64,000 nucleotides of DNA, taken from positions 33,974,594-34,038,593 of the forward strand of contig JALGQZ010000011.1 of NCBI GenBank assembly GCA_023105745.1, read 5' to 3'. The notes beneath the pieces were generated by a model. That model had not been told where the DNA came from and made no database searches. It saw nothing but the letters and a program-made list of their open reading frames with translations. The position numbers and the translations under genes were made by a program. Source of the stretch: Austropuccinia psidii (taxonomy: Eukaryota; Basidiomycota; Pucciniomycetes; Pucciniales; Sphaerophragmiaceae). This document shows, in pieces, positions 23,888-59,882 of the stretch. Position 1 is the first letter of the stretch. Each line of letters opens with the position of its first letter.

Positions 23888-23927
23888 TTTGGTAATTCTT
23901 AAAAAAAAATAGTAAAAAAAAAATGAT

Positions 23928-33003: not shown

Positions 33004-33049
33004 CACCAGGGCGAATCTTGTGTCAATCGTCGGCGATTGACTTCACGTC
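33004..33049 (+). repeat. Left terminal inverted repeat of the giant CACTA element
   Basis: 46 bp, pairing with 59834-59879. The three mismatches are all C versus T in a CpG/TpG context. The repeat contains a perfect 8-bp stem (GTCAATCG...CGATTGAC) around a 4-nt loop at 33022-33041. Confidence 0.88.
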
Positions 33050-33121
33050 AAGCAAACGTCAAGCAGGATAAAAGTCGAGCTCACGTCAAGCGAAAATCAA
33101 GCGAACGTCAACCACACGTCA
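33045..33121 (+). repeat. Subterminal ACGTCA repeats (left)
   Basis: Five copies of ACGTCA (33045, 33056, 33083, 33105, 33116), mostly followed by AGC or AC, within 77 bp. Matching TGACGT copies lie near the right end (59734, 59751, 59756). Subterminal arrays of this kind bind the accessory transposition protein in plant CACTA elements. That role here is inferred. Confidence 0.72.
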
Positions 33122-33340
33122 CACTCTTGTCTTACACCAAATCCTGTGACATCCAATAATATTGGTTCCCCTGTGCCTTCAACTCATAATCCTCACCACC
33201 TGATCATCCCGCAACCGTCCGATGATTGGTAAAAATTAGAACAGACCCCCGCCTGTTTGCACACACACACATCAAAGAGGTCCTTCAGCCAGTCTTGATG
33301 TAGGCGGGGGGTTTGACTTCACCAGATCATCCATGAAGTG

Positions 33341-33430
33341 TGCGTTTGCGTGTGCATTGGCGTGTGCGGGTGCGCTTGCGTGTGCATTGGCGTGTGCGGG
33401 TGCGTTTGCGTGTGCATTGGCGTGTGCGGG
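33341..33430 (+). repeat. 30-bp minisatellite, three copies
   Basis: Three consecutive 30-bp units of the form TGCGYTTGCGTGTGCATTGG followed by CGTGTGCGGG, nearly perfect. ORFs through it are by-products of the repeat. The rest of 33122-33703 shows no gene. Confidence 0.85.
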
Positions 33431-33703
33431 TGGGTGTGGGTACGCAACAGCCGATTCGGCTTCCAACATGATGATGGCGCAGTTAGAAATTTTGGATGCT
33501 GTGAAAGGTGAGTGTGTGGGTCAATTGATCATTGGCCTTGGCTTATTCACACTGTACCCCATGTCAAAATAGTAAGCTCTTTGTGGCAATGTGAAATAAT
33601 GGGCTTTGCTTGTCACAATGGCATGTCTCTGTCACTAAATTTTGAGGCAGTTATTTCACTAGCAAAATTGCTAATGAATCTGAGATATTTGCATTTTTGT
33701 AGA

Positions 33704-36700
33704 CTAAATATCATGAAATAACGGCTTTATCATTACAAGCAGTCCACATGACAGAGCTTTGTTATCATACAATCCACAGTTACCTTCTATTTCTTCTTCT
33801 GATATAATCAAGTGTCCATCATCAAAACCAACAGCTTTATAAATATTGAGATGTGGCCAATCTGGTAAGAAATTCACATCAATCTTCAAAGTTTTTAAGA
33901 TCAGAAAGTTATTGTTCAGTATGCTAGATGGCTCAGAGACTTTGAAAATGCTATTAATAATACCAAATCTTCGTGACCTGCCCCTCAGAAAACATATCAC
34001 ACTGTTGCTGACATTCTTGGATTCAGTTGAAAATATATTGTTCCCAATATTAATGTTTGAAACTGGAAAATACCAAGGTGAGACAATCCTTGAAGTGGGA
34101 TGACTTGTGGATTGCACGGTATTTTCTAAGCTGATCCAATCAACCATTTCCCTTGTTGCATGAAAAGTCTGTAAGTACTCAACAAGGCAATCATAATTTT
34201 GTTGGTCATGGCGGGATGGTTTGTTATATTTATGGTGATTGAACAGGGCAGGTGGCTGTGATTCGAAAAGCTGTTTTATTTCACATGGCACAGATGGGGA
34301 TTTCAGGAGAACGGAAAGGTTGGAAAATCGACAGATATGTTGAAGTAAGGTTTTATCTATATCATCTATTCAGAGTTGCAATAAGTTAGTCTTATTCAGT
34401 TCAGGTGTTTAATCAATGTGAATATATTGATCTTATTAATTGACATACATATCTTGTTATTTGTTGGCATCTTTGCAAATACTCCAATCAAGCGCTCATA
34501 ACCCCATGTGGCTGAGGCTTGTGCTGGGCCCCAACGTTGGAAGAGTTCGGGAATATGATCAGCAAAATGATGATTTTGTTTACTTTTCTGTTTTGGGAAC
34601 AGGTGTTGATTGGAAAGGCGGAATTTTTTCCAATGTTCAGCAAATGCAGTCCCATCATTTATTGAAACAGTCCAGCTTGTGGCAATGTTGATAGCACTAA
34701 TCAAATGGAATGTATTCTTGGCTAGTTCATTTGCAAGTTCTTCTGACTGACCCATTCTTCTTTGAGTGTTGGCAGATTGGTGTGCATCTAATGACATCTG
34801 TTGACTGAGCATTAGAAATGGAATATAGACCTTATATAAGAGAGCCCATTCAGCAGCTTTTAAGCTACCATGAGAGGGGGAACCCATTTTGTGGGGTACT
34901 CTTGTCCATGATGAGGGACTTATGGTCTCAGATATGATTTGTCGGAGATGCTCAAGAGCCTCACCCTTGATCTGGTGATCACTCAGTGCAGTGATATCCA
35001 ATTCAGAGGGGATTTCAGAAGTGGGGATGTAATCGGCATCAAATGAAGGAATCTCCGCAGAACCACTAGATGGATGTTCTGTGTTAGGGGTGGGCATTGG
35101 GAAATAGTTTTTTCGGGTGGAAGTAGTGGGGAGTGGCTCATTTATTATTTTTGCTGCGTCTCTTCTCAGGGAGCGGGCCTCTCTCAATGTGATTTTATCA
35201 AGAGAGCTGTTGGAGGTCTTGGAATCTGAGTCTGAACTGTTGGTGTCATTGGATTTCCTGCGGGACCTGAAGTAAATTTTTGATTTCGACTCTGGAATGC
35301 ACAATTTGAAAGTTGCATGATCCTTCAAAATTCCAAGTATTAAATTATGCATTATGTCAAGATTAACCATTCTGGTTGCATCCCAATATGGAAGGTCTTC
35401 CAAAATTGAATATCGCACTCCATACTCAGAGAAAATTGCTTGTCTTTGTTGTGGGGTTGCCCGAAGCCATTTGGCAATGGTTGATTTATGACTTTGGTAT
35501 GAGCGCGTGTAGTGAAATTGAGGACCAATTTCTTCAATTTGAGCTTTGTGAATGGTGCAAAAATTACAAAAGTGGTTTCCTGAATGGGAAATAAATCCAG
35601 TAAGCTTGCGCATGGCAACCACATCCGCAATGGCTGTGAGGATGGCAACACGGATAAAGGATCCTGAAGGACCTGTTGAGGTGGGTGCAAAATGGTAACC
35701 TTGCCATAGCTCTTTGAGCTCCTTGATGAGTGGCATTAATAGGTAATTCAATTGAAGCGCAGTTGGCTCCTTCCGACCAGGGATGATTCCTGCAACATAG
35801 ACATTCTCGGGCTTCAATCTTTCACTTGGGGGGAGATTAAGACAAATAAGCATGATAGGTCCAATGCTAGCCAACCGGGTTGACTTTCCATGTGCATTAA
35901 ACCAGTCCACATATATGGAGAAGGCCAATGCACCAGGAATGGACATGAATGGGGGGTCATTGGTATTTCTAGTGCCAGTGAAGCGTCTCCAGACCAATCC
36001 ATCCCAGACGTCACATTTGGGGGTACCTTCAGGGGTTTGGGATTGTTGATGTTGATGCAGAATTTCCATAATTCCAGCCCGCTGGAGGAATCTGGCAAGC
36101 CAATTTTTGAATGGTTGATAAATGAAATGTTTTGTTGGTATAAATTTTGGCTTCATGTTGGTTGTGTTTTGGGTGTGGGGTTCAGATGAATAGATGAATT
36201 TGCCTAATGATTGTGTGCAAGGGGGATCATGATCATTTGGGTCATTATGGCGTTGACAGTGGGGTTGGTCAGTTGTGACTGATTCAGTAAGGCCATTAAG
36301 AGAGAAACATTGAGGACAACATATATAGCTTTGAATCACTGGCTCCAATTGGAGATGTTCAAATATGGTACTCAGATCTTGAGGTATATGGAATGCAGGA
36401 GCGGGGGGACCAGCTGAGCTTGAGATACTGGACTTGATCAGCAGGTTCAGGGAGGGGTTGAGTATGCGTGAAGCCCTGCGGGGTAAATTATACCTTAATG
36501 ATAGAATGGCAGATATTATCATTCCTAGGTCTTGTGGGGGAAGGGTTTGACTGCCACTATATGGTTTCTGTGCAGTTGAATTGAGACCCGCTGGAGTTGA
36601 GAAAGTGCTTTGGGTCAATCGTGAATAATCAGCTGGGAAGATTTGATCCAATAGAATTTGTGGGCACCCAGATCCTGATGCAGAAGTAGGGATGTTTGGA

Positions 36701-36864
36701 AGAGATTTGGGTGCAATGGTTGATTTGAGCTTTTTAATGTGCTGTTTATATTGGAAAGGTGTGAAGGCAACTCCATGCCTATCACCCTCAGGGGAAGAGT
36801 GTGTTTGAGTTGAGCAGTGTTGACACATGCATATACGCATTGAGGAATAGGGCCGGGTTGTCAT
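33704..36864 (-). CDS. Tnp2-type CACTA transposase, two exons
   Basis: ATG at 36864; exon 1 36864-34449, intron 34448-34366 (GTATGT...TAG, 83 nt), exon 2 34365-33704; 1025 aa in frame. N-terminal cysteine motifs (C12, C14, C17; C182, C183, C186, C203, C216) look zinc-binding. The Tnp2 core spans roughly residues 240-520, with conserved Asp in YVDWFN (D320), AIADVVA (D414) and NLDIMHN (D503). Exon 2 gives the C-terminal domain common to basidiomycete Tnp2 proteins. No stop or frameshift was found, so it may be active. It should cut and rejoin the CACCAGGG ends. It is transcribed toward the left end and shares an upstream region with the divergent gene at 37830. Confidence 0.88.
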
Positions 36865-37829
36865 TGTTGCAGGAATTGGGAGTACGGTTGGTTTGTGTAT
36901 AAATATCTATGGTTGATGTGAAAGTGTTTGGGAGTGTTATTAATTGGAATTAAAATTGAGTGATTATTTATGAAGGGGGAGATGATTTGAGCCAGCTGAG
37001 GATTTTATCCCATTTGTAATGGTGCATGAGCTGCAGCGGATAAAGTGTAACATGTCTCATCTGGATGGCAGAATTGGTTAGGAGTTTAATTGGGTAAAAT
37101 GCCATGCTGCTCAATGCTCATACATATTCTAGTTTATTTACACATTGTGATGGTGCGGGTTTGACCATTGAGGGGGTTCCATTAGTGAAGTGTTACCATT
37201 GAAATGAGGGGATTAACCTTTAATCCATGTACGCTGGCACACCATCGTACAGTACATGGTTTAAACCTTATTACAGACATAACAATATAACTCTATTACA
37301 TAAGGGGTTGCAGTGCAGCTAAAGTCTTGGTATTTGGTTTGAGTGCGGTGGGCTTTTAATTGGTTGGAATGTGATTTGGATTGTCTTGCCTTTCTTGAAA
37401 AGGTGATGTCTCTTTTGTGCGTAAATCCTTCATGAATATACCCCTTTACAGATGTACAATGTTGTGGAATTTGAATGCATATATTGGCAGTTTGGATAAT
37501 TCACAAAATGTGACAATGGGGAGGCGGAAATGTTACCAAATATGATTACTAATGGATGATAGGTCCCCTTTGAGATCAAGGAAATATTTCATTATATGGT
37601 GGTAGGCCGTGCAGAGTGGTTTCCGAAAAAAGCGGAGGAGCTCAAGAGGAGGCAGGGAGGATTCTCCTAAAAAGAGTCTTATTGGACGTCCATGCAACAC
37701 TTGGTTCCAACTATTCATAGAATTTCTCTATTCTAAATTTGAAAAGATTTCATCTCATATAACTCTATTTTATCATAATACTGAGCTGTTTTATCAAGTT
37801 AAAAAAATTACTATACTTTTTTGGCCCTT
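36865..37829. promoter_or_regulatory. Divergent promoter region between transposase and second CACTA gene
   Basis: 965 bp without a gene between two divergent starts. It contains a near-perfect palindrome at 37229-37250 (GTACGCTGG, loop, CCATCGTAC), also bracketed by CCATGTAC and GTACATGG. No clear TATA box was assigned. Confidence 0.45.
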
Positions 37830-39878
37830 ATGTCATCTTCCAAGTCACATAAATCCCGTTCAGGTTCTGTTCATGACTCAGATAGTGAATCTACCATAGA
37901 ATATGTTCAAACACAATCACCATTGAGTCCCAACATTCCTCTCTCAACCCCTATCGCATCCTCAATGAATGTATCAGGTCTTAACATTGATGTGGGAAAT
38001 CCAAAGGCTCAAACTTCAAGCACTTGGTCAATCCCAAATATTTCCGTCACTCCGATTCCCCCCAATTCCACTAATACACAAATGCATGTGTCTCAGGGGC
38101 CAGAAGGCACACCTAAAATCTCATCAAGCACTAATCCCCAATCAAAATTTCCACATGAGTTCCTCCTCAATCCCAGTCAGAATCCAGCTGCTTCCCAGGA
38201 TCCCTTTGGACGAAGTAAACAGCCAACCCTCAATATCCCCTCAGGATCTCAGGCTCATGCGGTTGATGGGGGGCAACGAAAAAGACCATTGGAAAATGTA
38301 ACTTGGAGTGGTCTGTTGGAGGGAAATCCAGGATTGACTTTTCATCAAAGTAAGTCATTTTAATTTCCGAGTATAAACATTTTCACAATTTGATATGTTT
38401 GTTTAATGGGTTAGATATGGCACCTAAAGGCAAGTCGGTCCGATCTCAGGAGCCAATTGAAGACTGTGAGGATGACCAGTCTTCATTAATGTTTTGATGT
38501 GTTAACTGATGATTTGCATGGCAGGTGATGAACTTTATGCATCTTCACCTCTGGTCCATAAAGAGAAAGTCACTGGACGTCATCATCCATATGCCTCCAA
38601 ACCAAGAACGGGTCATGCCAGTACATCAAGAGAAAAAATTGTGGATGATGAGGATGAGATCATGTCTCCGACTCAAAGTGAAAGAAATGATGAACCAAGG
38701 AGGGGCAATTTCACACCGCATGAGCAAGGCACTCAATCAAATAGTGAGTTCACCACCCATCCTCAAATGGGCCTTGCCCATAGTATGCTTGAACAATCCG
38801 AGGTCAGACAGCAAAGGAGCCAGGCCCGCAAAGCTCACAATGTGGTGAAACGTGCAAGCCAGAAGGAGCAACAAAAATGGCTGAAGGCGGAACTTCCAGA
38901 GAACGTCCATGGAATGAGATCAGCAGTACACGCCCATTGCCTGTTCCTACTCAAAGTTAGGGATAAGGATTTTTCCTCACTACCAGCACCACCCAGCACA
39001 GAAGAGCGTGAAATTGCAATTCAAGTGGCTGGTCATCTCGGATATGTCCCCAAGGATGTTTTCAATGAGCCATCAACACAGGTTCAGTCTCAGGGTTTCC
39101 AAAGCTAATGCGAAAATGAGCTCCACAAGCTAGGACTAAAGCGATTCACTTGGGACTGGGAGAGCTCATGGCAACATCCGTTCAATGAGCTGATGTCTAT
39201 GGTGTTTTACCGTACATTCCGTCTTGCACTTGTCAGCACCGAGTATCATCAATACTGTTGGAACAAGGATCATAACAACTATGGGGTTGTGGCGGCTTTA
39301 ATGGAGCGATATTTCACTTATTTGAAAAGAGAATGGAAGTCTATTCAAAAGGATGCGGAGTATTTGGTAAAAAAAAGGAGAATCAAAAGCTCGCAAAGAT
39401 TAGTCAAAGGGTTAGTTACTGTATCTCTTCTTCATTGTGGACAAAGTCTGATGATGATCTACTTGATAATGTGCAGACCTGTGAGCGCCGTCGTGAATGG
39501 TGTGATACGGCTAAATTTCCCATTCTAGCATCACAATTCAATGACCCTCAAGTATGCTCAGATACTGAGGAGGTACTGGAAAATGGCCGTCAAGTTTACC
39601 GCAAAGTGGGATTACGCTGGCGCTCCCAGTTGTTTAATGAATTGGTATTGAAAATGGATAGAGACATAGAGTTTTGTAATCGGATTAAAAAAAAGGGTAA
39701 AAAAACTATTGATAGATTGCCAGAATTACAATCGACAGATGATGGTGATATTCCGGAAGGCCTATCATTTCAGGTATTTGATCAAGATTGGCTCAAGGGC
39801 TGTAGTAAGATGCAGACTATTGCCCTCAAAATACTTGACATGCCAGTTATTAGGCCGAATGGTGATGCTCTGCAATAA
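37830..39878 (+). pseudogene. Second CACTA-type gene (partner of Tnp2), frame broken
   Basis: Exon 1 37830-38349, intron 38350-38414, exon 2 38415-38465, intron 38466-38524, exon 3 from 38525; all introns GT-AG. The N-terminal half is Ser/Pro-rich. The C-terminal half is charged and ends in a region with CSDTEEVLENG and VGLRWRSQLFNEL, a pattern I associate with proteins encoded next to Tnp2 in basidiomycetes. A TAA at 39106-39108 interrupts exon 3. An A8 run near 39369-39376 is one base short of keeping the frame. It is either a damaged gene or affected by assembly errors. A DNA-binding accessory role is inferred from position only. Confidence 0.65.
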
Positions 39879-40216: not shown

Positions 40217-42616
40217 CTATTGGTGATTGGAATATGGCCTTCCCATAAGGAAGGATTTCAGATTAGTAATACAATCAAGATGAAAGATGAGCTCGAAAGG
40301 TACCTTCCGCATGTTGACCTCAACTGAATGAGGAGTGATATAGTGGATGACCTGTACAGGTCGTTGTTGGCCAATACAATGTAGTCGATCAACAGCCTGA
40401 GCCTCAATGGCTGGGTTCCAATTGGGCTCCTGGAAATGTGGATGTCAGGGGCCGCAAATCAGGGCAGAATTTTGGGGGTCCCCTCACCATTAAATAGACT
40501 ATATTAGCACAAGTTATATTGAGGCCAGTTCCAGCCGCGGCAATGGATGCAATGGGTACTTCACATTCAGGATTATTGAAGAAATTGTCAAGCGCCTTCT
40601 CCTGCGCTTGTGGTGTAATTGTTCCATCAATTCGTGATGAAAGGATAGAGTGATGGGCAAGTGCAATACCAATTCTAGAATAAAAAAAGTCAGATCGATT
40701 CAATTGGTTATGAATTTATATTACAATTAACTCACAAATCAAGAAATTGGGTCCATTGGGTATAAACCACCGATTTGGTTGGACCACACTTTGATTGTTT
40801 GTTCTTCATTAAGCTTTGTAGGAGGTGTGCAATTTTACTACTCATCATGCATGTTTCCACATCCACAATAGTTTGTGTGATTCTTGGGGAGTTATCCTGA
40901 GTGCTCCTGCCCTCGGCGTCTTCCAAATCTGCCTCCCCAATTGTGTTAAGCATGATGTGATGGTTACAACATATTCGCAGCTTATTAATATATCTGAAAA
41001 ACTCTCCTGGTCCTTTGCTTTTGGATGATAGGAATTCTTCGTATAATGTGGAATATTCTTGCTGCATGGTCGGGTTGAGTGGGAGCAGCTCATAATGATG
41101 GCTAATAGTGGGGAGGGATTCGAGATGTGTGGTTTTGGTGCGGCGCAAACTTAAATGCCGCAATGCCAAATGCAAGATATCATTGCAACCTTTGGAAAGA
41201 CTACTCAGGATGAATGGTGACCAGTTATCTTGATCAGCGCTCTGGGGTTGAGTGATGAATGATATTATGCCCAAAAGGTCATAAATGGTGTTGTGAATAG
41301 GTGTGCCCGTTAAGCATATTCGGCGGGATGAAAGGAGGCTATTAATGGCACGGTGAGTGGCAGTGTATTGAGACCGAATATAGCTATAAGATGGGGCAAG
41401 GGTTATTGGATATAAAAGGTAATTTGAATCATTTAAGCTCAGCCACTCACTGTGCTTCATCCAAAATTATACGATGCCAATTGATTTGAAAAATGAATGA
41501 TGTAGAGGTATTGGTTTGCTTAAATTCTTGGGTGATGGTATTGTAAGAGGTGATGATGATATCATATTTTAAGATGTCGGCCTCGGATAATGAGTAACGA
41601 GTGGGACCATGGTAGATTTTGGCATGCAGCGCTCCAGCCTGAGCATGCTTGGATATTTCAGATTGCCAGTTGGTAATTAAGCGACGGGGGGCAGATGATC
41701 ATGGTGGGCGTGGAGCAATGGGGGTTTGCAATCATCTGCTCCTTGGAGGTACCAATTAGAGCAATGGCCTGAATGGTTTTACCTAATCCCATATCATCCG
41801 CGAGCAGTCCTCCAAGAGGGGTATTGGTCGAAAGGGATTCAAATGAGCTAACGACCTTGTTTGTAATGATATGCCTTGCATTAAAAGTGGATCCTGGGGG
41901 TGAGGTGGCCCAAAGGTTACAGGCTGATTGGCCATTGGGGACTTCTCGATCCCAGAGAAAAGCTAGTCCGGTCTTTTGATGAGGGAGGAGGGGGGTTTGA
42001 ATAATGGCATGGGGCGGGGTCATCATGGGGAGGTCTGATCCACTGGGTAATTGTATCATTTTTTGCTTGGAAATCAATGATGAAACAGCAGGATATGAAG
42101 CAGGCGTCGAGTTTGAATCGGGAAATGTCGGAGTAAAGAGTTGAAATTGACTATGAGTATTACAGTCATATTCTTTGGGCATTTTAAGCTTGAAATCTTG
42201 TGTTCGAAAGCTTTCCATTATGAATAGAATGTTTGGATACCATGTGAAGAACATCAATGCTGATTGGGTTTTTGAGATGAGGAGGGATCATTTGCATCAG
42301 TCATAAATACTCCCTCAACAAATAATATTTGAGTAGGATTGGATTGGCAATTGTCAATCCATGCCCCACCAGGACCACAGTGCATGAACGTTTTTGGTGC
42401 CCCAAGGAATGGTATCAATGTTTGGGAAAGGGTTCCTGGGAGAGATCCAATAGCACGCTGGTGATTGGGGAGATATATGAATATGTTGTGTTGATTGTGC
42501 CATAGGATAATCCAAGAACCTAAGTGGGAATTCTCAGGCTTTAAGGTTATATCACTATTTATTTGAATACGAACATTAATCATCCCAATGCAAAGTGGTT
42601 GTGAAGGGGTTGACAT
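40217..42616 (-). pseudogene. SNF2-family DNA-dependent ATPase (Rad5/Rad16-like), one frame break
   Basis: Starts with ATG at 42616 and ends with TAG at 40217-40219. Motif I reads DDMGLGKT (near 41795). DEAH is split by an intron (41450-41384), followed by RICLTGTPIHN (near 41310). Further introns lie at 40735-40675 and 40487-40430. The helicase C half has SIAAAGTGLNI and the motif VI form QAVDRLHCIGQQRPV (near 40395). One frame change occurs at a C6 run (about 41686-41691) between motifs I and II. The join of the first about 115 residues to the rest near 42255 is unresolved. As a family these proteins remodel chromatin or act in DNA repair. It is transcribed toward the transposase side. Confidence 0.78.
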
Positions 42617-43921
42617 GATGGCTATTTTAAATTATTTGGGGACAGTTGGGAATTTTATGATTGGGAATGGTTAGCTAAAGGGAATGAAGAGGAATAAGCG
42701 CAGGTGGGGAACTTATATGAGAGGCAGCAATGGGCTCAAAGGGGGATGGCCTGTGGTTATGTGCATGGTTGTTAGGAAGATGGGCCTCTTGGGCTCATAT
42801 TTTTCATATCCGATTGGGGGCATATATCAAGGCAAGGTGGCAAGAATGTGGGTGCACCGAGATGACTGCAGGAGACGCATCAAGTTAGGCAACATTTTGT
42901 TGACCAAGGTTGACATTAGCATATGCAAAATTGGGTGTGTTGTAGAAACTTATTGTGAAGGGGAATATTAGAGGCATGCGGCCATGTTCGCTGGTGTGAC
43001 AGCAAACAATGAGTGTATCTTCCCCAGGTTAATTGTCGGACAGGGACCGAGCGGGCAATGTTGACAGCTTCAAAGAGCAATCTCATTGTGGGGATGTTTG
43101 TGTGTGGGCGGGTGAGATATGGTCGGTGGCACGCCACCGAACATGAGCTTGGTTTGGCCTGAAGTTTTTTGCTGACTGATGATGCGCACTGGGATTCCAG
43201 GGGGGAATGTGTGGCATGATCCAAGGGGGCGCCGGCCTTGAGCCGTGATCCACATATACATTCACCCCAATTGCGTTTGAGGCGGGTACTAAACCACCGA
43301 GATTGGCATCAGGGTCTTTGCCTCACGCATGTACAAAAGTCCGGTGAAGGAGGCCACCCGCCCAAGGGATTTTTGGGCTGCAAGCCAGGTGGCGCAACTT
43401 GCGCGGGGCGCTTGAAAACGTTCAGAAAATGACCCAGAGTGGGAGATCCCCACACAATCATAGGCCGGGATTATTCTAATGCGGATGAGGCTGAAGCAAA
43501 TCCACACTGATTGGTCTCAGGTTTCCACGCGCAGCGGGTGAGCGTCTGCAGTCAAGCTGACCACCCAACCAAGAAAATAGCCGGTCGGAAGACTGGAAGT
43601 AAAATGTCTTCCAGGCGTGTGAAAGCTGCCTGTGTATGACCCGTCGGGTGGTGCATATGAGAAAGCGTGTGGCTGCCCGCCAATGAGCACGCGCGGCCAT
43701 TCAAAGTTTTCCCCAATATCACCCACTTAGATTAACTTGGATTACACGCGCATCTGTGCCGTAGTTAGGCAGAGCTGTCCAACAAGGTGCATCAAAGGGA
43801 TGCAGCTGAGATATATGACTCGATGGCTTGACGTGATTGCATGTTAAATAGTTGAACAGCTTTTGCTCTGCCCCGCAGCATACATTTAAAAAGGTGTACT
43901 GCGTACTCAGTTGCAGCATTC
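42617..43921. other. Non-coding cargo region with palindrome
   Basis: No supportable gene. Overlapping short ORFs here lack family features. It holds the perfect palindrome TCGGTGGC-AC-GCCACCGA at 43123-43140, related to palindromes elsewhere in the element. It is less AT-rich than the retroelement regions. Confidence 0.5.
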
Positions 43922-44116: not shown

Positions 44117-44152
44117 GCTGGGACAGCTGAGATCGTCTCAGCTTCACCATGG

Positions 44153-45928: not shown

Positions 45929-46083
45929 AAAATTAAAAAAAAGAATCATTATTTGCTCTTTTTATTTTTTGTAATACTTTCTTTCAAATAAATTTTTTGT
46001 ATTCAATTATTGTTATTTTCCATTTCTCTTACTTTCTTTCTTCACGATAAATTATATTTTTTCTTCAATGGTTCAAATCTCCT

Positions 46084-49400: not shown

Positions 49401-49592
49401 TTGTTTTTTTTTTGGGAGATTGCGAGAAAAAGACCAAAAAAAAAAATCAAATTGGTTTTTTTTAATATTGTTGTCATACAACAATACAGACCTCCCAATA
49501 ATCCTGCCACTGCCAAAAAGAGAAGTGGCGGGTCATACAGCTCCAATAACCTGCTGTATAGCCAAACCAAGGGTCCCAGGCTGTTTGGGACC

Positions 49593-49806: not shown

Positions 49807-50068
49807 CACCGCAATTTTTAACTGGTTTCCTGTATGGTGTATCAATTACGTTGCACGGTATAACAGATAGCAGTTAGCTTCTGCGCGGGCTTTTTTTCTG
49901 GCACATGCACAGCACACACCACACACTCACCCAGTGCCCTCCCCTCCGAACGTCTCTAGTCGAGTGACCACCTTCTGTATTCAATCAAAAAGGTCAGCAA
50001 CTTTCTTTTCATCAGTCCCAAGTCTTCACTAACCCTTTTTCGAGATCTCCAGCTGCCAGCGCCATATT
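49807..50068 (+). repeat. Left 262-bp terminal inverted repeat of nested element
   Basis: Pairs with 54399-54660 over its full length without gaps. It is preceded by TAG (49804-49806). Confidence 0.9.
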
Positions 50069-50647
50069 TCCTGATTTACGTCTTCTCTCCATCTGGCGAC
50101 TTGGTTCACTCAGTCTGGCAGGTTTGGGTTGATTTTCTGCTTCATATCTCAGAATAGTCCTTGAAAAATCGGACCATAACTATTTCCTCGGTCGTTGGGC
50201 TGCAAGTGTCTTACTTTTAGAATGAATCATCATTCAAACCAATCGCGTCTTGGCTTCTCAACCTCAACCTCACATCTCAATCGATCGTGATCTCTTGTTG
50301 ATTGGTCTCATTCTTGACCTCCAAATTTAGAATCAACTGGCCTAGACAGCCATGCATCCCTTTGGTTCTCAACAACTCAGGGCGCATTATGCCGCCACCG
50401 ACTGGCCAGAAGCTCTGATACATTTTGCTCGGTTTGGAGATGGTCAGTCCAGTCGTCTTTTAGCCTGCACCCGTTTGTCACTGAAAAAATTTGCTTGTTT
50501 TCATTCACAAGACCAGCCAGTCAATTTAGGTTGGGGTACCAAATCGACGCAGTTTCATGGCTCGCTGGGTAAACCGGCTGCCCAAGTTTCTGAGGCCAAA
50601 ACCCTCCCCTTTGCCACAATTCCACCCAAGTCGTTTTCATTGAACGC
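50069..50647. other. Segment between left TIR and ELP1 similarity
   Basis: An open frame from 50352 (MHPFGSQQLRAHYAATDW...) runs to a stop at 50681 but shows no family I recognise. It may be captured flanking or unrelated gene sequence. Confidence 0.4.
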
Positions 50648-52959
50648 TTCCGAACTGAGCTGGAAAGGCGATGGTGCCTAGCGGACGTCAGCAAGATCAA
50701 TCAAGTTTGCGAGCTCATGGTGCTTGAATTGACCCACAAACAAGTGCAGTGGGAGTACATCAACAGTATTCTGACGGCATTTGTTTGTTCAAAATCACCT
50801 GATTATAAATCTGCGTTACAGATATTGTCAAAAATGAAGGGTAAGAGGCTTGTTTTATTGCTCAGAAAACATATGAAGTGAATTATGTGCTTTCTTACAG
50901 CTCAGGATGGCAAGGTTTTAGATGATGCGGTGAAATACATAATCGTTTTGAGTGACGTTAATGAATTGTACAACTTTGCTCTTTCAATGTATGATTTATC
51001 TTTGGTAATTCTTATCGCTCAACATTCTCAAAAGGCACGCAAGTATTTCTATTTCCAGTATTTACTATAAAGCACCTCAGGCTTATATTGTACTTTTTTC
51101 CTCAAATTACTGGCGCAATTAACTCAGGACCCCAAAGAATACCTACCATTTTTACAAAGCTTACGGGACCTTGAACCTGAGATGCGCAAATTTAAAATTG
51201 ATGACCAATTGGGGAATTATTCTTTGGCAGTGCGACATCTCTCAGCTGCAGGTGAAGATCAGTTTGATGCAGTGCTTAATTATATCACGCTTCATTCTTT
51301 ATATGCAGAGGCTCTTGATATGTATTCAGGTAATTCGGCTAAGACTAAGGTGAGGCTTTTTGGATTTTATGACATGAAAACTTGGGCTAGGCTAAATTAT
51401 TTGGTTAATATTTTTAGGCTTTGAGGAAACTCCAGGGAGTTTGGCTCGTCGAAACAAACAAAGTCTTTGAAGGCGGACTTGGTTGGTATTTTAAATTATA
51501 TAAGCTGCGAGATCTTTGAGGCCTTCTGACTTTGAATGTACAGCTTTTGAACTTGCCGACGAAGTCAAAGAAGCAGTGAAATGTTACCAACAAGCTGAAG
51601 CATGGCAGGAAATGTTTGCTTTGATTTCTCAAAATGAAGGAGACTTTAATATAGCTCAATGTGCCGAAGATATGGCTAGTGAGCATATAAACCAAGAGCC
51701 AGGCATATAAATTGCAAAATGAATTGCTGATTTTTTCTCGACTGTTTGCAGAACAATTAAGCGCATCTGGAAGGTATCTTGAAGCAGGCACAGTTTTGCT
51801 TGAGTATGGTAATCATTTGCATGATGCCATCACTGCTTTATGTGATGGACAGGCATTTTCACAAGCTATTTGTGTAGTTGCGTATCACGGTTTGCTTTAA
51901 ACAAGCCTGTGCTATTCTCAAGGATTGATTGGGCTGCTTGTTTGTTTCAGGCTCTTTCGAAATCGCAACCAGGTTTGGTCGTTGAAATAGTTATGCCTAC
52001 CGCGGAGGAGTTTGCAGAATCCCTATCAGAAGAGCTTGTTCAACTACAAGAGCAATTAACCAAGCCAGTTGATTGTTTAGCCGAGCTGAAGCTTGCGCGG
52101 GACACAAACCCTGGTTGGTGTTCCAAATTTTCAAGACTTTGTGCATGACACTGAAATTAGTTTTGACGTTTTGAAACCTAAAATTTATTCTTCCTCAACA
52201 ACATGGATGAAAATAATGGTGCACTTGATGGTGTCGAGGCAATGACCGATGTCTCGACCGTTTTCCATACTGATTATTTCTGTTATACCCAGGGTATTCA
52301 AAAATCACACTCGGTTGCCACTAGCCGTTCGGCTCAATCCTCATCGTGAGCGTTTCCTATTGATGCTTGCGCTACCATGCACGAGCTTAGCCAATGTATT
52401 ACTAAAAAAAAGAGTTTGACGTATCCGCTGATCAAACATTTGGTAATGAATTTAGTAGCTGAACCTCAAGGTTGTGAAAAAAGGAGGCAAAGAAAAAAGC
52501 AGCGGGCAAAAAGGGTAGCATTTATGAAGAAGAGTACCTGCTTAGCACTCTGGCCAAAGTTTGCACAGAAAAGTTACCTTATTTACAAAGTATGTTTCTT
52601 CCGATAGCTTGCTGAGCGAATCGTTGATAAGCGTTCTAAAAAACTAATTTCTTTTTTTAAAATATTTTACAATAGATACTTTGGGAAGTTTATTGCCAGC
52701 GTTTGTACAAATGATAAAATTTGATCTGACTTCCAAAGAAAAATTAATCGATATTTCATAAAGCCTGCAAGATCAATTAGAAAAACTACAACATGAGATG
52801 TTCAAAAAAGTCAATGAAGTCTGGGATGAACGTGAAGCCCAAAAGGAACTAAATTTAGAAGATCAAGAAAAAGTCGTCAAATTACAGAATAAGGATCAGT
52901 TGAATGTTAATCGACCAAATTTGGTAAATGATTTAATGTGGAAACTCAGCATGCTTTGA
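50648..52959 (+). pseudogene. ELP1: ELP1/IKI3 (Elongator subunit 1) 3' fragment, broken
   Basis: Successive pieces match the C-terminal half of Elongator complex protein 1: KINQVCELMVLEL, DVNELYNFALSMYDLSLVILIAQ, DPKEYLPFLQSLRDLEPEM, KFKIDDQLGNY, ATEEFAE-like PTAEEFAESLSEEL, KKAAGKKGSIYEEEYLLSTL (about 52494) and VWDEREAQKELN near the end. Introns are retained, for example 50841-50900 (GTAAGA...TTACAG). The next intron, ending at 51128, has a mutated GC donor. Frameshifts and stops (for example near 51519, 51709, 52147 and 52759) prevent translation. The N-terminal WD40 half is absent. Elongator modifies wobble uridines of tRNA. This fragment cannot. Confidence 0.88.
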
Positions 52960-53829
52960 AATGAACACATTTATCACATGATGGGCAATTCAATCTTTTT
53001 GTCAACGAAGAAAAATCAATATGTTGTCAATTATCAATGGGTGATGTGTGAATATTTTGTAAGAAGCTTTGCCCTTCCGATTTTAGTTGAATGAATTGAA
53101 GTTTCATGGTATGAGGATTTTTGCAGTTATGGCATAAAGACTTAGGACTGAAGGAAGCTGTGATTCTTTTGCCTATGCTATTTCAATCAAATATTTGCTT
53201 ATGTTTTTAGCACAAGTTTTTCAACTCTTGCTCAATTAGAAGTTATGTTATATATGTAATGATGATCCTAATTGTGGTGCATTTAAAAGTAATGCTTTTA
53301 AAAAAACAAGTACTTGAAAATTTGTGCTCATCCACTAAGCCTTTTATTTTTTAATACATTTAGTGTTGACCTGTCAATGGTTGCTAGGTCATGAGTTTGG
53401 TACAGGAGCCTAGAACTACTGGGCTCTATGGGTCAGTGGTTGGAACAATGATGCAATTGCAGTAGCAAACCAGTATGCAGTTCTACTGGAATAATATGTA
53501 AATGCAGTGTGTATGAAACTGATGTGTCAAATGTACAGAATGTTACGGCATTCAGTACCTACTGCATGCCGTTTCATACTGATAATTATAAGTCAACTGT
53601 GCAGTCCTTTCACATTAGAACAGTCAAATGGTGCTACTGCACATACTGCAGACATTTTCTAAAGTCACCACAACTCCTTTACTTATGTTCAATCCCCTTG
53701 AGAAAACAAGTAAAGTTAGCCAAACTGGCTGAAATCATGGAAAATTTTTGTTTCACCCAAAAAGAGTATGCAAAAATATAATTTAATCTACAAGTTCAAA
53801 ATTTTTTGAGGCTACATATTCAAAGAATC
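52960..53829. other. Non-coding part of nested element
   Basis: 870 bp after the ELP1 end. No gene or recognisable domain seen. It may include captured ELP1 downstream sequence. Confidence 0.4.
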
Positions 53830-54398
53830 ATTAACCACTCAAAGAGCCTTTGGGTACTTTCACCCATTCTTTGAGGCAAGTAAGATGAGAGATAGTTTTT
53901 GAACTCAGCCTAGCCCTTCTAGGAGTGACAATGTGGCCAATCTGAGAAAACACGTGCTCAACTGCAGCCAACGAGGCTGGTATTGATAGATAACATAGCA
54001 CAATGGACCCCTCAACAGGTAAGTTTCCACTGTGGATTTGTCTCTGTGAGGCATTTTTAAGGGGTAAGTAATGTGGAGAGATGATTTTGTGGTTATTACA
54101 ACTTATAAACTAACCTTCCAGTAAGAGACAATGTCCTCTTCAGGGGCCATAGGCCAATGGTTAGCCAAATATGCCATTACCTTGTCATTTCGGTGATTTG
54201 CAAATAATTGTGCTTGAATCTTGTCAAGTAGCTTGGAACATTGGTGTAATATATTATCCCGAGTATTGAGTTTGCTCTTTTATTTCTTGGGCAAACTGGG
54301 TGTCATGTGCAAGGTATCATTCTCCTTTTCATTGGTAAGCTGTTAAACATGGTAATAATATTTGCCCAATAAAGCATCTAAGGCTGGTTGATATTGAG
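53830..54398 (-). pseudogene. hAT transposase C-terminal remnant
   Basis: The minus strand encodes the hAT dimerisation region: DIVSYWK (near 54125), then after a probable intron LSIPASLAAVEHVFSQIG and TPRRARLSSKTISHLTCLKEW (about 53990-53870). Upstream there are stops (for example within QLTNEKEN...KK). It ends where the right TIR begins. The surrounding element lacks the 8-bp duplication of hAT elements, so this is a passenger relic rather than its own transposase. Confidence 0.75.
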
Positions 54399-54660
54399 AA
54401 TATGGCGCTGGCAGCTGGAGATCTCGAAAAAGTGTTAGTGAAGACTTGGGACTGATGAAAAGAAAGTTGCTGACCTTTTTGATTGAATACAGAAGGTGGT
54501 CACTCGACTAGAGACGTTCAGAGGGGAGGGCACTGGGTGAGTGTGTGGTGTGTGCTGTGCATGCGCCAGAAAAAAAGCCCGCACAGAAGCTAACTGCTAT
54601 CTGTTATACCGTGCAACGTAATTGATACACCGTACAGGAAACCAGTTAAAATTTGCGGTG
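54399..54660 (-). repeat. Right 262-bp terminal inverted repeat of nested element
   Basis: Reverse complement of 49807-50068. It is followed by TAG (54661-54663). Confidence 0.9.
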
Positions 54661-54951
54661 TAGTCTCTTAGTAAGAATGTCGGCCAGTTGTTTTGTTGTT
54701 GAAGTCCATTGCAAGGTAATGTTATGTTTTCTAAATAAATTGTCTACCATATAAAAATTTCTTTCCAGACTTTTAATTCTGGTTTTCGACCCTTGCAGAA
54801 TCATTATGGCCGCCTTATTATCGCAATGCATTTTTATTGGTATATTATCCACACAGGTCTTCACAAGTTGAATTGTGAATGTCAAGACTTCGGAAGCCAT
54901 TGCCAATGCTATATAGTTTGAGTATAAAAAAATTGAATTCTTTAAAACCAA
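54661..54951 (-). pseudogene. Copia RNase H fragment
   Basis: The minus strand encodes SNYIALAMASEVLTFTIQLV, then MHCDNKAAI and QLADILTKRL, the standard C-terminal RNase H of Copia polyproteins. It is truncated upstream at about 54951 and cut downstream by the nested element. The rest of the element is absent. Confidence 0.85.
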
Positions 54952-55512
54952 GTTAAAAACATTTTATTAGTGCTTTTAACCTCAATCCTTTATTGATAAT
55001 TCAAAATGGGGCTGACTAATTTAATTCTGCCTCACCTTCAATTAAAAAGCTACATCCAGGGCAAGAAATGAAATTGAAGCATATCACATGCCTTTATTCC
55101 ACACATAAAAATGCATGTAAATATAAAATCACATTACAAACTGCTTTTTACATCTATTCAATTGCATGTCATAAAATGGATTTCCATAAAGCTATATTTG
55201 ACCTTTTTTGATTTAAAAATTAAAATAATAATAAACAAATCAATCAATTCTTTTTTGAAAAAAAACTCATATTTAATATTTCCTAATTTTCAGAAATATT
55301 TTTTTGGGGAGGGTGTTTTTATTTATTTATTAAGTTTTATGATTAATAATAATATTTTTATTTTATAAAAAAATAAAACTTTACTAAAATTTCTATTGAA
55401 AATAATGAAATTCGTTACGAATTTGTGCATTTTGTAAATAAAATTCGAATTTGAATAATTTGAATTTCTGTCAGGAAAATTCGAATTGTTCGAATAGCCA
55501 TGCCTTGTTTAC
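54952..55512. other. AT-rich spacer
   Basis: No supportable gene. It includes TTCGAA-type words near 55440-55500. Confidence 0.45.
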
Positions 55513-56188
55513 TATTGTGTGAGAATAATTTTCGTAAGTGCCCCACCAAAACCTTGAGTGAGTATTTGTTTGTGAGAAAATCTTTTGCCAAAAATGTGCC
55601 AATAGTCACCATTCCTGCCTCCTATATTTTCTTCCTCCATTGTTTAGAGCCATATCAAATCTTAACTGTAAAAAAGCGGGAGGTTCCGGCATGTGAGCAA
55701 TCCACTCCAGATTCATGAGAAATTGCCATTCCTATGGTCACACGCTATTAATCTTAGTCATGTATTGAATTGTTTAAATTGTCGGGAACCTTCACAAGCG
55801 TAACGATTGGCGTGTGAGCTGTCGGGAGCCTGCATTGGCATGTGAGCTGTCGGGAACCTGCACAGGCGTAAGGATTGCCGTGTGAGCTTTCGGGAGCCTG
55901 CACAGGCGTAAGAAATTGTCAGCATTGTTGGCAACCCTCACAAGCCTAAGGATTGGCGTGTGAGCTGTCGGGAACCTGCACAGGCGTAAGGATTGGGGTG
56001 TGAGCTGTCGGGAACCTGCACAGGCGTAAGGATTGGTGTGTGAAGCGTTGGCAGCCCGCATAGGCGTAAGGAACTTTTAGCATTGTCGGAACCTGCACAA
56101 GCATAAGGATTCGCATGTGAAGCATTGGGATCCCGGACAAGAGCAACAAACCTGGCATATGTACAGTACGATGGCATGCCACTGTACA
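55513..56188 (+). repeat. About 680-bp direct repeat (right copy)
   Basis: Second copy of 46084-46766, with a minisatellite at about 55785-56120 (units sharing GCGTAAGGATTGG and CTGTCGGGAACCTGC) and a terminal palindrome-like GTACGATGGC-AT-GCCACTGTAC near 56166-56187. It lies just downstream of the gene at 56307-58548. Confidence 0.85.
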
Positions 56189-56306
56189 ATTACTATTGGT
56201 ATTCAGACTGTCGCATCCGGGCAGTAGTAGGATAGGAAGTCATGATTATTAAATTCTTAAATAACTTTGCAAAATTAAATTACAATCTATCTAGTACAAT
56301 GCTAAT

Positions 56307-58548
56307 CTAAAACGGGTCAATCCTGGTTGTAAGTTTAGCTGACCTGGGTACAGTCAATGTGACCTCATCACCTAAACCAAGAGGACGCTTCGCCACCCAG
56401 GCATCACCAAAGTCTAATACCAAGCATCGTGCAAATTCAAATCTAAGAGGTACAGTGGGGTTAAAAGACTCTGATGAGAAGAAACTTTTATTCAGTAAAT
56501 TACATATATACTTATTAGTACGTAGCCACATTGGCTCCACTAGATTTTTACCCTCTGAAAGTTTTGCGGAAATGTCAATTAGTGATAAAGCCCCTTTAAC
56601 TGAGCTTGTTCTCCAGTCATCTGAGCATACCATCAAACCACAAACCCCCGCCGCACAGAATGCCACTAATATACCATAGCAAATTCGATTTATTCCGAGA
56701 CTCTTGTGACACGCCAAAAGATCTTTGATGGCCTCATTTTTTTTTGAGTTTGTGAGTTTGCCTTTGATGCCATTAACTTTGACCTTTGTATGTGCACGTA
56801 CCATGTTGTACGCAATCATCAAATGGATAACTGTATCCATTAGATCCTCCAGGTTCTTGTGCGGCTTTGTGGATATCTCATTGTCAGCCCCGCCACCTTC
56901 AATGCTGAGTTGGGTTGCACGTTGCTTCGATTTACTCAAGCAGGAGGCAAGGTATTCAACTGCTCCGCGTTCGAGTCCAAGAGGATCGGTCGAATTTGAT
57001 GTTGGTGCAACGTATGGTTTGGGTGCAATCACATCGTATGAGACTAAACTAATGGATTCAAACATAACATTTGTCCAAAAATGTTTAACTGGATTCGCGG
57101 GGTAAAGAAGGCTCTGAACCATTTTGAAGAAGGAGTGTTCAGATTTTGGGAGATTTTCTGGAGGTTTAGCTGATTCCTTCATCAATTTGAGATTCCAAAT
57201 GTTGTGATCAAAAAATGCTTCTGTTTCTGTTGGCTTAAAAAAATATAACCCTGTATATTGCAATTTATATCACCAGTAAACAGCCAATAATCAAGTATCA
57301 TGCACAAAGATAAAAAAAAAACTCACCTGCCATCTCAAGGTTCTCCAGCCAAGCCGACATTTTAAGCTCTCGGTTACTGATCACCTTAATACCAACAGGC
57401 AGGAATGTATGAGCATCCTTTGTTGGTAAATTGTCCCATCTATTTTTGTAAATCCTATTGATATTATCAAGCCCCCTTTTCCAGGATTGTTGAGAAATAT
57501 TGGAATGATAATTCAAAATGCCTGCAAACTCTTCCATGCGGGATAAAAATATTCCTTGAAAATTCGCAGCAGATGACACTTCAGGCTCAGCGTCGGGAAT
57601 TATATCAGTCATATCTCGTCCCATTGTATCATGATTGATTGTTTCCCTTTCTTGAAAGGCTTGAATATTCCGAGGAGAGGTGGGAGGGGTTGCATCATGG
57701 ATTGTTTCATTGGGTATCGGGGGGCTTTCAGTATGTGGAGCTTCATCATGGATTGTTTCATTGAGTATGGGGGGGGTTCAGTATGCGGAGGTTCATTATC
57801 AATATGGTCCACTTCAGCATTGATCATTTCATCACCTTGATCCCGGGAATCCTTTGCGGCTTCAAAGGTACGGTGTTTTTTGTTGGTTTTTTTGGTCGCA
57901 TGTATATTTGATCTTTTTCCTAATCCTTTGCCTGGAAATCCAATTACGACCCGAGATCCTTCAGGTAGAGATTCTCCCACCTCCACACCTGCCCATATAT
58001 TGTAAGCAGGTATTTTTATCAATTTTGTTTTGATTTAGTAATGGACTTACGGTTCAAATCCATTTTGAGGAGGCTCATGGCTTCAGCAATCTTTTGACAC
58101 ACATAATCAGGAATTTTACTATCATTTTGAATCTTTTCGAGCCTTGGGATTGTTTGAGCAATGTTGGAGACAAATTGCTCCTTGGATATAATTTCCACCT
58201 CCCCACTGAAAATTACATCATCTTGCCCATCATCTTCTGTCGGTGCACAAGGTTCAACAGTCTTTTCCTTCTCATAAGTTTTAAAATTTGGTTTCTGAGA
58301 GCTTGGAGGTTGACCTGAAATAAAGGCTATGACACAATATCAGGTTTTGAGAGATTAGAAATACTCAAGATGGATGTATACTCACATTCTGGAAGAACTG
58401 GTGGATCTTGATTATCTTCATGTGACTGGCTCTCTGCTTCAATGCCTAATTCACGACTACTGGCCATATCAGATATTTCACTTCCACTCTCTGGGGCTGA
58501 AGTTGGTCGTTCATTAAAGTCAGTTGAATTTCCCGGGGTTTGGGCCAT
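56307..58548 (-). CDS. Unrecognised four-exon cargo protein (one frame break)
   Basis: Exons on the minus strand: 58548-58386, 58314-58051, 57988-57327 and 57250-56307; introns 62-76 nt, GT-AG, phases consistent. About 677 aa are expected. A C8 run near 57768-57777 is one base short, shifting the frame. The N-terminal third is acidic and Ser/Pro-rich with a duplicated phrase around PNETIHDA. A basic patch (KRSNIHATKKTNKKH) could be a nuclear signal. The C-terminal half is well folded in character (AYNMVRAHTKVKVNG, CYGILVAFCAAGVCGL). No domain recognised. It lies near the right end of the giant CACTA element, transcribed away from the end. Confidence 0.68.
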
Positions 58549-59040
58549 AGCGGAGTTAGTTTAGTAAGCAAATAGATGGTGACGAGTTGATTGATAACTT
58601 GTTTGAAAATTTTGAATAAAAAGATCCAAATTGAAGAAAATAGGTGGAAGTAAAATAATTGCATATGCAAAATGCAATTTGTTGGGAAATTGAAGGAGGC
58701 AATGTTTTGCAAATTATTTCATATTATGCAAATGAAATTACTTCACTGTGAGACATTGAATAAAGTTGACTAGTGAGAAACCTACTAAAGTCAACTTTTG
58801 AACTATTCAATGCTTATGAGGTAAGGACTAAGAAAAGTGTTCAATTTGAACTATATGAAATAAAATGGTTTTGTTGGGGAAACAGGAGACACATTTCTTG
58901 TCTTAAATAGTCCTCTTATTAGGTTTTAATTTGTGAGTCCCATGATTTAAACCCTAACCACAACATTGTGAATATACTGACCAATTTCCCCTGAGGTCCT
59001 GTTGGCAGAGAAGGCCACTCAGCATATTTCGGCGATTGCG
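58549..59040. promoter_or_regulatory. Upstream region of the four-exon gene
   Basis: No gene. It presumably carries the promoter of the minus-strand gene starting at 58548. Confidence 0.35.
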
Positions 59041-59048
59041 GTCATCAT

Positions 59049-59545
59049 GTACGCCAACAAGCCACCGTACACTGTGGATGTAATACGGAAACATGAGGAT
59101 GGTAAGCGGCATCGGAGGCATGTCGGGAGGGTACTTACTAGGCGAGCATAAGGATCGTAAGCAGTGTCGGGAGCATGTTGGGCGGGCACTACACGAGCGT
59201 AAGGATTGTAAGCAGTGTCGGGAGGGCACTCCATGAGCGTAAGGATCAAAAGCAGTGTCGGGAGCATGTTGGGAGGGCACTCTGCGAGCGTAAGGATCGT
59301 AAGCAGTGTCGGGAGCATGTTGGGAGGGCACTACACGAGTGTAAGGATCGTAAGCAGTGTCGGGAGGGCACTCCGTGAGCGTAAGGATCGAAAGCAGTGT
59401 CGGGAGGGCACTCCGCAAGCGTAAGGATCGTAAGCAGTGTCGGGAACATGTCGGGAGGGCACTGCGCGAGCGTGAGGATTGTAACGAGTGTCGGGAGGGC
59501 ACTACACAAGCGTAAGGATGGTAAGGGTGGGGGTGTGAAAGCGTA
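59049..59545 (+). repeat. Palindrome-like motif followed by GCGTAAGGAT minisatellite
   Basis: GTACG...GCCACCGTAC at 59049-59070, then about ten degenerate units (about 38-52 bp) sharing GCGTAAGGATCGTAAGCAG and TGTCGGGAGGGCACT between about 59110 and 59545. The word GCGTAAGGAT is shared with the arrays at 46.4 and 55.8 kb. Long ORFs across this array are artefacts. 59546-59833 shows only TGACGT subterminal motifs. Confidence 0.8.
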
Positions 59546-59733
59546 AGGAGTGGTGAGGACGGAGATGGGGGGGCAGGCAGTGTCAGAGTCTCATCTGGAG
59601 GGTGGTGCGGGTGCGTAAGCATGCTAAGTGTTGGGGAGGCGGAAGCTATTAGGTGAAATTACCCAAACGTTGCAAATAGTGTTGAAACGGGTTTGGGCTT
59701 TGAGTGACATTCTCATGTGACACATGTGACGAT

Positions 59734-59761
59734 TGACGTTGTCTTGACGCTGACGTGACGT
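59734..59761 (-). repeat. Subterminal TGACGT repeats (right)
   Basis: TGACGT at 59734, 59751 and 59756, the inverted counterpart of the ACGTCA array inside the left end. Confidence 0.65.
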
Positions 59762-59833
59762 GACCCACTAAATCCAGTGACTATAAAGTGACACTAACGA
59801 GACTGAAGCAAGATTTTATACTGACCGCAGTGC

Positions 59834-59879
59834 GACGTGAAGTCAATCGCCAACGATTGACGCGAGATTCGCCCTGGTG
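59834..59879 (-). repeat. Right terminal inverted repeat of the giant CACTA element
   Basis: Reverse complement of 33004-33049 with three C/T differences, ending GCCCTGGTG and followed by AAA (59880-59882). Confidence 0.88.
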
Positions 59880-59882
59880 AAA

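Follow-up and report, generated by a model that had tools for sequence, protein, structure and literature searches.

A probable large Tnp2-bearing transposon of EnSpm/CACTA type in the rust fungus Austropuccinia psidii, seemingly lengthened by nested mobile DNA

Results

Termini, target site, and CpG content

The window analyzed here, a 64-kb stretch of Austropuccinia psidii DNA, contains a pair of terminal inverted repeats (TIRs) that enclose 26.9 kb and are accompanied by a short flanking duplication and by subterminal repeats, as follows.

33001..33003: AAA, left copy of a putative target-site duplication (read from the sequence)
33004..33049, + strand: left TIR, starting CACCAGGG (TIR alignment and TIR-pair scan)
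33045..33124, + strand: left subterminal ACGTCA(AGC) repeats, with five exact copies of ACGTCA
59734..59761, − strand: right subterminal ACGTCA repeats, three exact copies
59834..59879, − strand: right TIR (TIR alignment and TIR-pair scan)
59880..59882: AAA, right copy of the putative duplication (read from the sequence)

The TIRs are identical at 43 of 46 positions (self-BLAST E 4e-12), and all three mismatches are CpG/TpG differences. The ends are of the CAC..GTG type, starting with CACCA and not with a literal CACTA. A scan of 32.9 to 60.0 kb for TIR pairs returned two with scores above 16, namely, the outer TIRs (37) and an inner pair at 49807-50068/54399-54660 (244), and no further copy of the 46-bp terminus was found in the 64-kb window, where the next best match agrees at 27 of 46 positions. 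The AAA on either side corresponds to the 3-bp target-site duplication of EnSpm/CACTA elements; on its own it is modest evidence, because random 3-mers of this composition would match with a probability of 0.021. The ACGTCA motif is mirrored: the left 250 bp contain five + strand copies and the right 250 bp three − strand copies (expectation, about 0.07 per 250 bp). An earlier note, made from the sequence alone, had described the 46-bp inverted termini, the AAA duplication, and ACGTCA repeats at both ends; all were recovered, the termini to the exact nucleotide.

Other right ends could be traced at the protein level in P0171 and P0260, the latter being an A. psidii MF-1 protein that also contains the peptide encoded by the right TIR. 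The terminus pattern had no matches in viral contigs. Outside the element lie a degraded Gypsy element on the left (29.2 to 32.3 kb) and a Gypsy C terminus on the right (60.7 to 61.0 kb). These two pieces do not represent neighboring stretches of a single element, and thus the flanks reveal no empty site that would demonstrate continuity of the target across the element.

Both outer edges also coincide with a step in CpG density.

33004..33503: left CpG-rich cap, 32 CpG in 500 bp versus 2 CpG in 600 bp outside
58980..59879: right CpG-rich cap with a 40- to 51-bp minisatellite, 61 CpG in 900 bp versus 2 in 600 bp outside

The observed/expected CpG ratio is about 1.0 in the caps and 0.05 to 0.09 in the DNA just outside.

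Transposase and other genes between the termini

33704..36864, − strand: gene for the Tnp2 transposase (about 1,025 aa), open across two exons (PF02992; structure by eye)
37821..39878, + strand: ORF2, oriented divergently from Tnp2, interrupted (adjoins Tnp2 in MF-1, tags O181_041661/041662)
40220..42631, − strand: SNF2-family Rad5-like ATPase gene, several exons (PF00176, PF00271)
47645..48799, − strand: Tet-like 2OG-Fe(II) dioxygenase (TET) open reading frame, 384 aa, in an AT-rich stretch (PF20515, E 4.5e-48)
56307..58562, − strand: right-end gene (RGENE), multi-exon by eye (MF-1 matches)

The Tnp2 gene consists of an exon at 34396-36864 on the − strand followed by a 3′ exon with a stop at 33704, the intron position having been set by eye. 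Its product matches PF02992 (E 8e-15; 55 bits against a cut-off of 28.6), and an alignment of 12 proteins identifies conserved residues D320, D414, C433/C436, and H506/H516 and a later E, the last being our own assignment; these are the D, D, CxxC, HH, and E motifs of the Tnp2/Transposase_21 protein that characterizes EnSpm/CACTA elements. In a search that took only proteins of at least about 452 aa, the nearest named relatives were A. psidii MF-1 proteins, which account for 17 of the 87 matches. No Tnp2 loci were found in viral contigs, and none of 14 pattern matches in genome contigs was confirmed. The earlier note had called the Tnp2 gene complete, and it is open in two exons; completeness does not extend to ORF2, which has one in-frame stop and a frame change, or to RGENE, which has a frame change near 57.8 kb.

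ORF2, SNF2, and RGENE are A. psidii repeat families and not single host genes, with at least 56, 62, and 95 matches, respectively. All 95 RGENE matches are named A. psidii MF-1, as are 119 of the 120 matches listed from the 188 that passed in a third protein search. The best solved relative of the SNF2 gene product is RAD5. Solved-structure profiles gave no match for RGENE and two weak MafG matches for ORF2 (E 0.47 and 0.59), and the structures predicted for relatives of RGENE and of ORF2, with mean pLDDT values of 39 and 43, respectively, were too poor for a fold search. In P0171, also from MF-1, right-end subterminal sequence, the minisatellite, and RGENE occur within one gene model.

A Tet-like domain is present in 6 of the 95 RGENE models. 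The window TET aligns at E 1e-3 with five of these six, at 23 to 29% identity, and no closer relative of the RGENE-linked TETs was found within the window, so that membership of the window TET in the element is uncertain; the RGENE-linked MF-1 TETs are of another lineage. A sequence search for solved relatives of the window TET found none at E values of up to 10.

Nested and repeated DNA in the interior

Between 42.7 and 56.3 kb, the element is a patchwork of segments that includes the following.

46082..46766, + strand: copy 1 of a 0.68-kb repeat, containing a 77-bp minisatellite (self-comparison)
49807..54660: nested CAC..GTG element with ELP1 and hAT fragments, 262-bp inverted termini, and TAG on both sides
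54661..54963, − strand: Copia RNase H remnant adjoining the nested element (by eye; without a credible Pfam match)
55518..56189, + strand: 0.68-kb repeat, copy 2, 84% identical to copy 1 (self-comparison)

The inverted termini of the nested element (4.85 kb) are 97.7% alike, and it has its own TAG duplication; the earlier note does not mention this second element. The one host gene recognized, a fragment of that for Elongator subunit 1 (ELP1), is located within it. Copy 2 of the 0.68-kb repeat is bracketed by the 9-mer TTACTATTG, which is located at 55509 and 56190 and has no other + strand site in the window. Given these duplications of their own, the nested element and one 0.68-kb repeat can be later arrivals. 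No inverted pair scoring above 16 bounds the TET segment or the stretch at 43 to 46 kb. CpG content did not provide a clean nesting clock, since the ratio for the nested element (0.57) is close to that for RGENE (0.52); the TET stretch is at 0.30. DNA nested in this way could still travel along with the element after its entry.

Gene linkage in A. psidii MF-1

Linkage was analyzed among 231 MF-1 gene tags (17 for Tnp2, 95 for RGENE, and 119 from the third search, in which P0188 has no tag); the 70 Tnp2 matches without an A. psidii tag were excluded. Four pairs of tags share a contig. ORF2 and Tnp2 follow one another directly on a contig of 7,857 bp, and SNF2 and RGENE do so on one of 5,705 bp; the other two pairs are both RGENE-RGENE (5464/5470 and 79539/79543). 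The near tags of another SNF2 (O181_096869) and RGENE (O181_096871) are on contigs of differing size and were left uncounted. SNF2 and RGENE were found adjacent in one pair only, and when tags are drawn at random, 8.5% of 2,000 trials contain one or more such pairs if a total of 133,000 tags, our own estimate, is assumed. The same two genes span 17.5 kb in the window. Because their tags share a 5.7-kb contig, about 12 kb of the interior appears to be absent from the MF-1 copy, which would be at least 11.8 kb shorter over this interval.

Discussion

A single insertion and its alternatives

Taken together, the TIRs with their CpG/TpG mismatches, AAA, the ACGTCA repeats, the CpG steps at both outer edges, and Tnp2 support the earlier proposal that a single CACTA/EnSpm-type unit, bounded by these ends, carries a transposase gene of its own. 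It seems probable that 33004-59879 constitutes a large transposon of this cut-and-paste class. We consider it likely that this was a single insertion whose core, about 15 kb in length, later grew to 26.9 kb as other mobile DNA became nested in it. The element's own genes would be Tnp2 at the left, followed by ORF2, the Rad5-like SNF2 ATPase gene, and RGENE; a slot for a TET/JBP-type dioxygenase probably lies between SNF2 and RGENE, giving four or five genes in all. ORF2 and RGENE would since have decayed. By analogy with its family, Tnp2 would act by binding to both the TIRs and the subterminal repeats and cleaving at the CAC..GTG ends, with a 3-bp duplication left upon insertion.

An unlikely alternative is that the left side, with Tnp2, and the right side, with RGENE, belong to two elements of the same family that each lost the end facing the other, 33004 and 59879 never having been excised together. 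In its favor are the patchwork middle and the finding that no contig size is common to the 17 Tnp2 and 95 RGENE entries, although one Tnp2 contig is 26.5 kb long; in addition, P0182, the one gene model with pieces of both genes, shows them in reverse order relative to the window. Against this stand the matching AAA, the lack of any remnant terminus in the interior, TIRs that differ at CpG sites alone, and the adjacency of SNF2 and RGENE in MF-1. It is more improbable still that the element is a true giant, in which all 26.9 kb, including the 43- to 46-kb stretch, the TET segment, and the ELP1-bearing element, moved as one cargo unit and exist in several copies. The ends and AAA do enclose everything, and Tnp2 is open, but the nested element and one copy of the 0.68-kb repeat have duplications of their own and may have entered later, and the MF-1 copy is apparently shorter. 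Of the earlier description of a giant with many cargo genes, both the giant size and the cargo are weakened: three of the genes are repeat families, the ELP1 fragment belongs to a separate element, and much of the length is probably due to later insertion. Mobile DNA that entered the element, and not a cargo of host genes, seems to account for most of its length.

Ascomycete Starships are likewise large, multigene fungal mobile DNA, with a tyrosine-recombinase captain and a mechanism and ends unlike those of this element. Size and multigene content are all that would recommend a Starship-like or other non-CACTA giant transposon here, a reading that we regard as very improbable given the Tnp2-type transposase, the CAC..GTG inverted termini, the 3-bp duplication, and the finding that none of 20 scanned open reading frames in the window has a tyrosine-recombinase Pfam match.

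Relation to known elements and possible roles

Plant En/Spm elements have CAC..GTG ends, subterminal repeats, and a Tnp2-type transposase together with further proteins, as found here. Their genes are usually few and are not known to include an SNF2 or TET gene. KDZ elements (Dileera and kin), with 7- to 8-bp duplications, were rejected in view of the 3-bp duplication, the PF02992 match, and the lack of any KDZ family match in the Pfam search. Plavaka was also rejected, its score of 26.2 bits narrowly missing the cut-off of 26.3; the ends differ as well, those of Plavaka being TGT..ACA or CATCA..TGATG in the relevant part of PMC12730594.

EnSpm elements with TET genes have already been published for rusts in that article (Kojima 2025), which in the portion available also reports related EnSpm families in A. 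psidii. As described there, they share with the present element CAC..GTG termini, 3-bp duplications, a TET/JBP gene (of uncertain membership here), and an EnSpm transposase with some similarity to Plavaka; unlike this element, the TET-bearing families described there come from P. striiformis. The available part of its main text contains no mention of SNF2, and the SNF2 gene and the CpG-rich ends may be new. Enlarged EnSpm elements of 16 to 20 kb with 4 to 5 open reading frames, as cited in the accessible part of a 2019 review (PMC6431247), occur in the red alga Chondrus crispus, and these are similarly oversized CACTA elements with several open reading frames, in a different host.

SNF2 and TET would aid the element against silencing by chromatin or methylation. 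Somewhat speculatively, A. psidii may harbor an EnSpm lineage with an anti-silencing kit, SNF2 and TET beside the transposase, which would shield the CpG-rich caps from methylation-driven decay while the DNA just outside has almost no CpG. A TET from another lineage could then take over the TET slot; we hold this to be possible but doubtful. If the lineage truly carries both genes, it would be a concrete case of transposon-encoded chromatin and methylation tools. Nesting can give an element of ordinary size the appearance of a giant, and because apparent size can be inflated in this way, claims about size need copies and empty sites. CACTA elements make up the second highest share among the repeats of the A. 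psidii genome, according to the part of PMC12774611 that treats them.

Boundaries of the element

The stretch from 33004 to 59879 very probably constitutes a genuine CACTA/EnSpm element, the boundaries of which are exact. Its termini lie where the earlier note had placed them, with 33004-33049 and 59834-59879 forming inverted repeats identical at 43 of 46 bases. All three mismatches are C/T differences at CpG sites, a pattern that would be expected if identical termini had decayed by methyl-cytosine deamination. An inverted-pair scan of 32.9 to 60.0 kb gave two pairs scoring above 16, these termini (37) and an inner pair (244), and no further good copy of the terminus was found in the 64 kb (next-best match, 27/46). 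The AAA claimed for both flanks is present (chance that random 3-mers agree, 0.021), as are the ACGTCA subterminal repeats, with five in the left 250 bp and three mirrored in the right 250 bp (about 0.07 expected).

The boundaries are independently indicated by steps in CpG composition, both of which coincide with the outer edge of the termini. On the left, there are 2 CpGs in the outer 600 bp, 32 in the element's first 500 bp, and 1 in the next 400 bp; on the right, there are 61 in the last 900 bp and 2 in the 600 bp beyond. These CpG-rich caps (33004-33503 and 58980-59879) drop abruptly to almost CpG-free flanking DNA.

Genes of the element and their relatives

Features between the termini
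33704-36864, minus strand: Tnp2, the transposase (Transposase_21, E 8e-15)
37821-39878, plus strand: ORF2, oriented divergently to Tnp2, with one in-frame stop and one frame change
40220-42631, minus strand: SNF2 gene, multi-exon
46082-46766 and 55518-56189: 0.68-kb repeats, mutual identity 84%
47645-48799, minus strand: TET, a Tet-like dioxygenase ORF (PF20515, E 4.5e-48)
49807-54660: nested element, 262-bp inverted termini from CACCGC, 97.7% alike, TAG on both sides
56307-58562, minus strand: RGENE, the right-end gene, with a frame change near 57.8 kb

Tnp2 is open, as had been proposed, with two exons encoding about 1,025 aa (intron position judged by eye), and in an alignment of 12 proteins it retains the invariant D320, D414, C433/C436, and H506/H516 and a later E. 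Some relatives among the matches to ORF2 and RGENE continue across the break sites. Neither of these two matched a Pfam family, and predicted structures of their relatives were too poor for use (mean pLDDT, 43 for ORF2 and 39 for RGENE). The solved structure closest in sequence to the SNF2 gene is RAD5 (E 1e-11).

Austropuccinia psidii MF-1 accounts for 17 of the 87 Tnp2 relatives (70-86% identity for 16, 36% for one) and for 95/95 RGENE relatives. In a joint search with three window peptides, 119 of the 120 matches listed (188 passing) were from MF-1; placed on the window, these fall on SNF2 (at least 62), ORF2 (at least 56), and TET (at least 1). So many MF-1 relatives indicate that Tnp2, ORF2, SNF2, and RGENE are, judged by sequence, amplified families and not single host genes, and that the window probably derives from A. 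psidii itself or a near relative.

The TET ORF is open despite lying in a 2.65-kb stretch of 23% G+C (46800-49450), with zero CpG across 47.0-48.5 kb. A Tet-like domain also occurs in 6 of the 95 RGENE models. The matching TET pieces of these six, some of which include RGENE, are mutually 46-74% identical; the window TET is only 23-29% identical to the five that align with it at E 1e-3, and no closer relative of the six was found within the window. The window TET shares 70% identity with a different MF-1 protein, P0253, and appears to belong to a lineage other than that of the RGENE-linked TETs.

Nested DNA in the interior

The nested element, with its CAC..GTG ends, contains fragments of Elongator subunit 1 (ELP1; E 2e-17 versus a solved structure) and a hAT dimerisation fragment, as if host sequence had been captured. 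A Copia remnant adjoins it (by eye). The 0.68-kb repeats carry a GTAAGGATT-type minisatellite, to which the minisatellite at the CACTA right end looks related by eye. The copy at 55518-56189 has nine identical flanking bases, TTACTATTG, a 9-mer absent elsewhere on the plus strand of the window, and is without visible inverted termini.

The stretch at 42.7-46.1 kb has 49% G+C and a CpG value of 0.77, versus 0.31-0.48 for Tnp2, ORF2, and SNF2, and by composition may be younger, although CpG is a weak clock because RGENE has nearly the same value as the nested element (0.52 and 0.57). A search for the ends of this stretch found none. Within it, 44557-45925 is an open stretch (G+C about 50%) with a cysteine-rich N terminus, the first part of which matched no Pfam family; we take similar proteins to be very frequent in A. 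psidii annotations.

Linkage in MF-1 and probable size of the core

MF-1 tags appear to follow contigs sorted by size, and consecutive tags with an equal-sized contig were read as probable neighbours. Among 231 tags, there was one case of ORF2-Tnp2 adjacency (7,857-bp contig; chance, 0.013) and one of SNF2-RGENE adjacency (5,705-bp contig; chance, 0.085, assuming 133,000 tags). The latter pair spans 17.5 kb here (58548 to 41035), so that the MF-1 copy would be at least 11.8 kb shorter; provided that the remainder is alike, the core would not exceed about 15 kb. One MF-1 model, P0171, extends from subterminal sequence of the right end (at 59.6 kb) across the minisatellite to RGENE, and another, P0260, leads from ORF2 to a right terminus, probably in a nested copy.

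A single EnSpm/CACTA element, with a core of its own genes inflated later by nested mobile DNA, is the likely explanation. Against a simple picture count P0182, the sole model with both Tnp2 and RGENE pieces, the order of which is opposite to that in the window, and the Tnp2 and RGENE match lists, which have no equal-sized contig in common; both slightly lower our confidence in this explanation. The earlier note had described a giant transposon with many cargo genes. The CACTA unit and its ends are borne out, but the 26.9 kb is probably mostly nesting, and the additional genes, although present, are probably mostly the element's own or those of other transposons.

Known elements and possible mechanism

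In EnSpm elements, Tnp2 works on the terminal and subterminal repeats, and movement is by cut and paste. Ends, flanking AAA, open transposase, and nested element are seen directly here; beyond these, SNF2 and TET would counteract silencing of the element. CpG-rich ends in plant En/Spm are protein-binding and methylation-control regions, and by analogy the caps are candidates for both roles.

TET-bearing EnSpm elements of P. striiformis are described with CAC..GTG ends and 3-bp duplications, both shared with the present element, and related EnSpm families are reported from A. psidii (Kojima, PMC12730594); the word SNF2 is absent from the main text of that paper. Chondrus EnSpm elements of 16-20 kb with 4-5 ORFs are cited in PMC6431247, and CACTA elements are given the second highest share among A. 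psidii repeats in PMC12774611. Judging by titles and abstract openings, none of the other papers retrieved from the library searched on CACTA with rusts, helicase, or SNF2 describes such an element.

Other elements in the window

A young-looking Gypsy element at 10183-20475 has 1.9-kb direct repeats that are 99.8% identical and encloses an open 1,900-aa ORF (12243-17945, minus strand). At 23303-26029, 585-bp direct repeats (99.5% identical) surround a 428-aa serine-/asparagine-rich ORF in which no retrotransposon domains were recognised by eye; this is possibly a non-autonomous LTR element.
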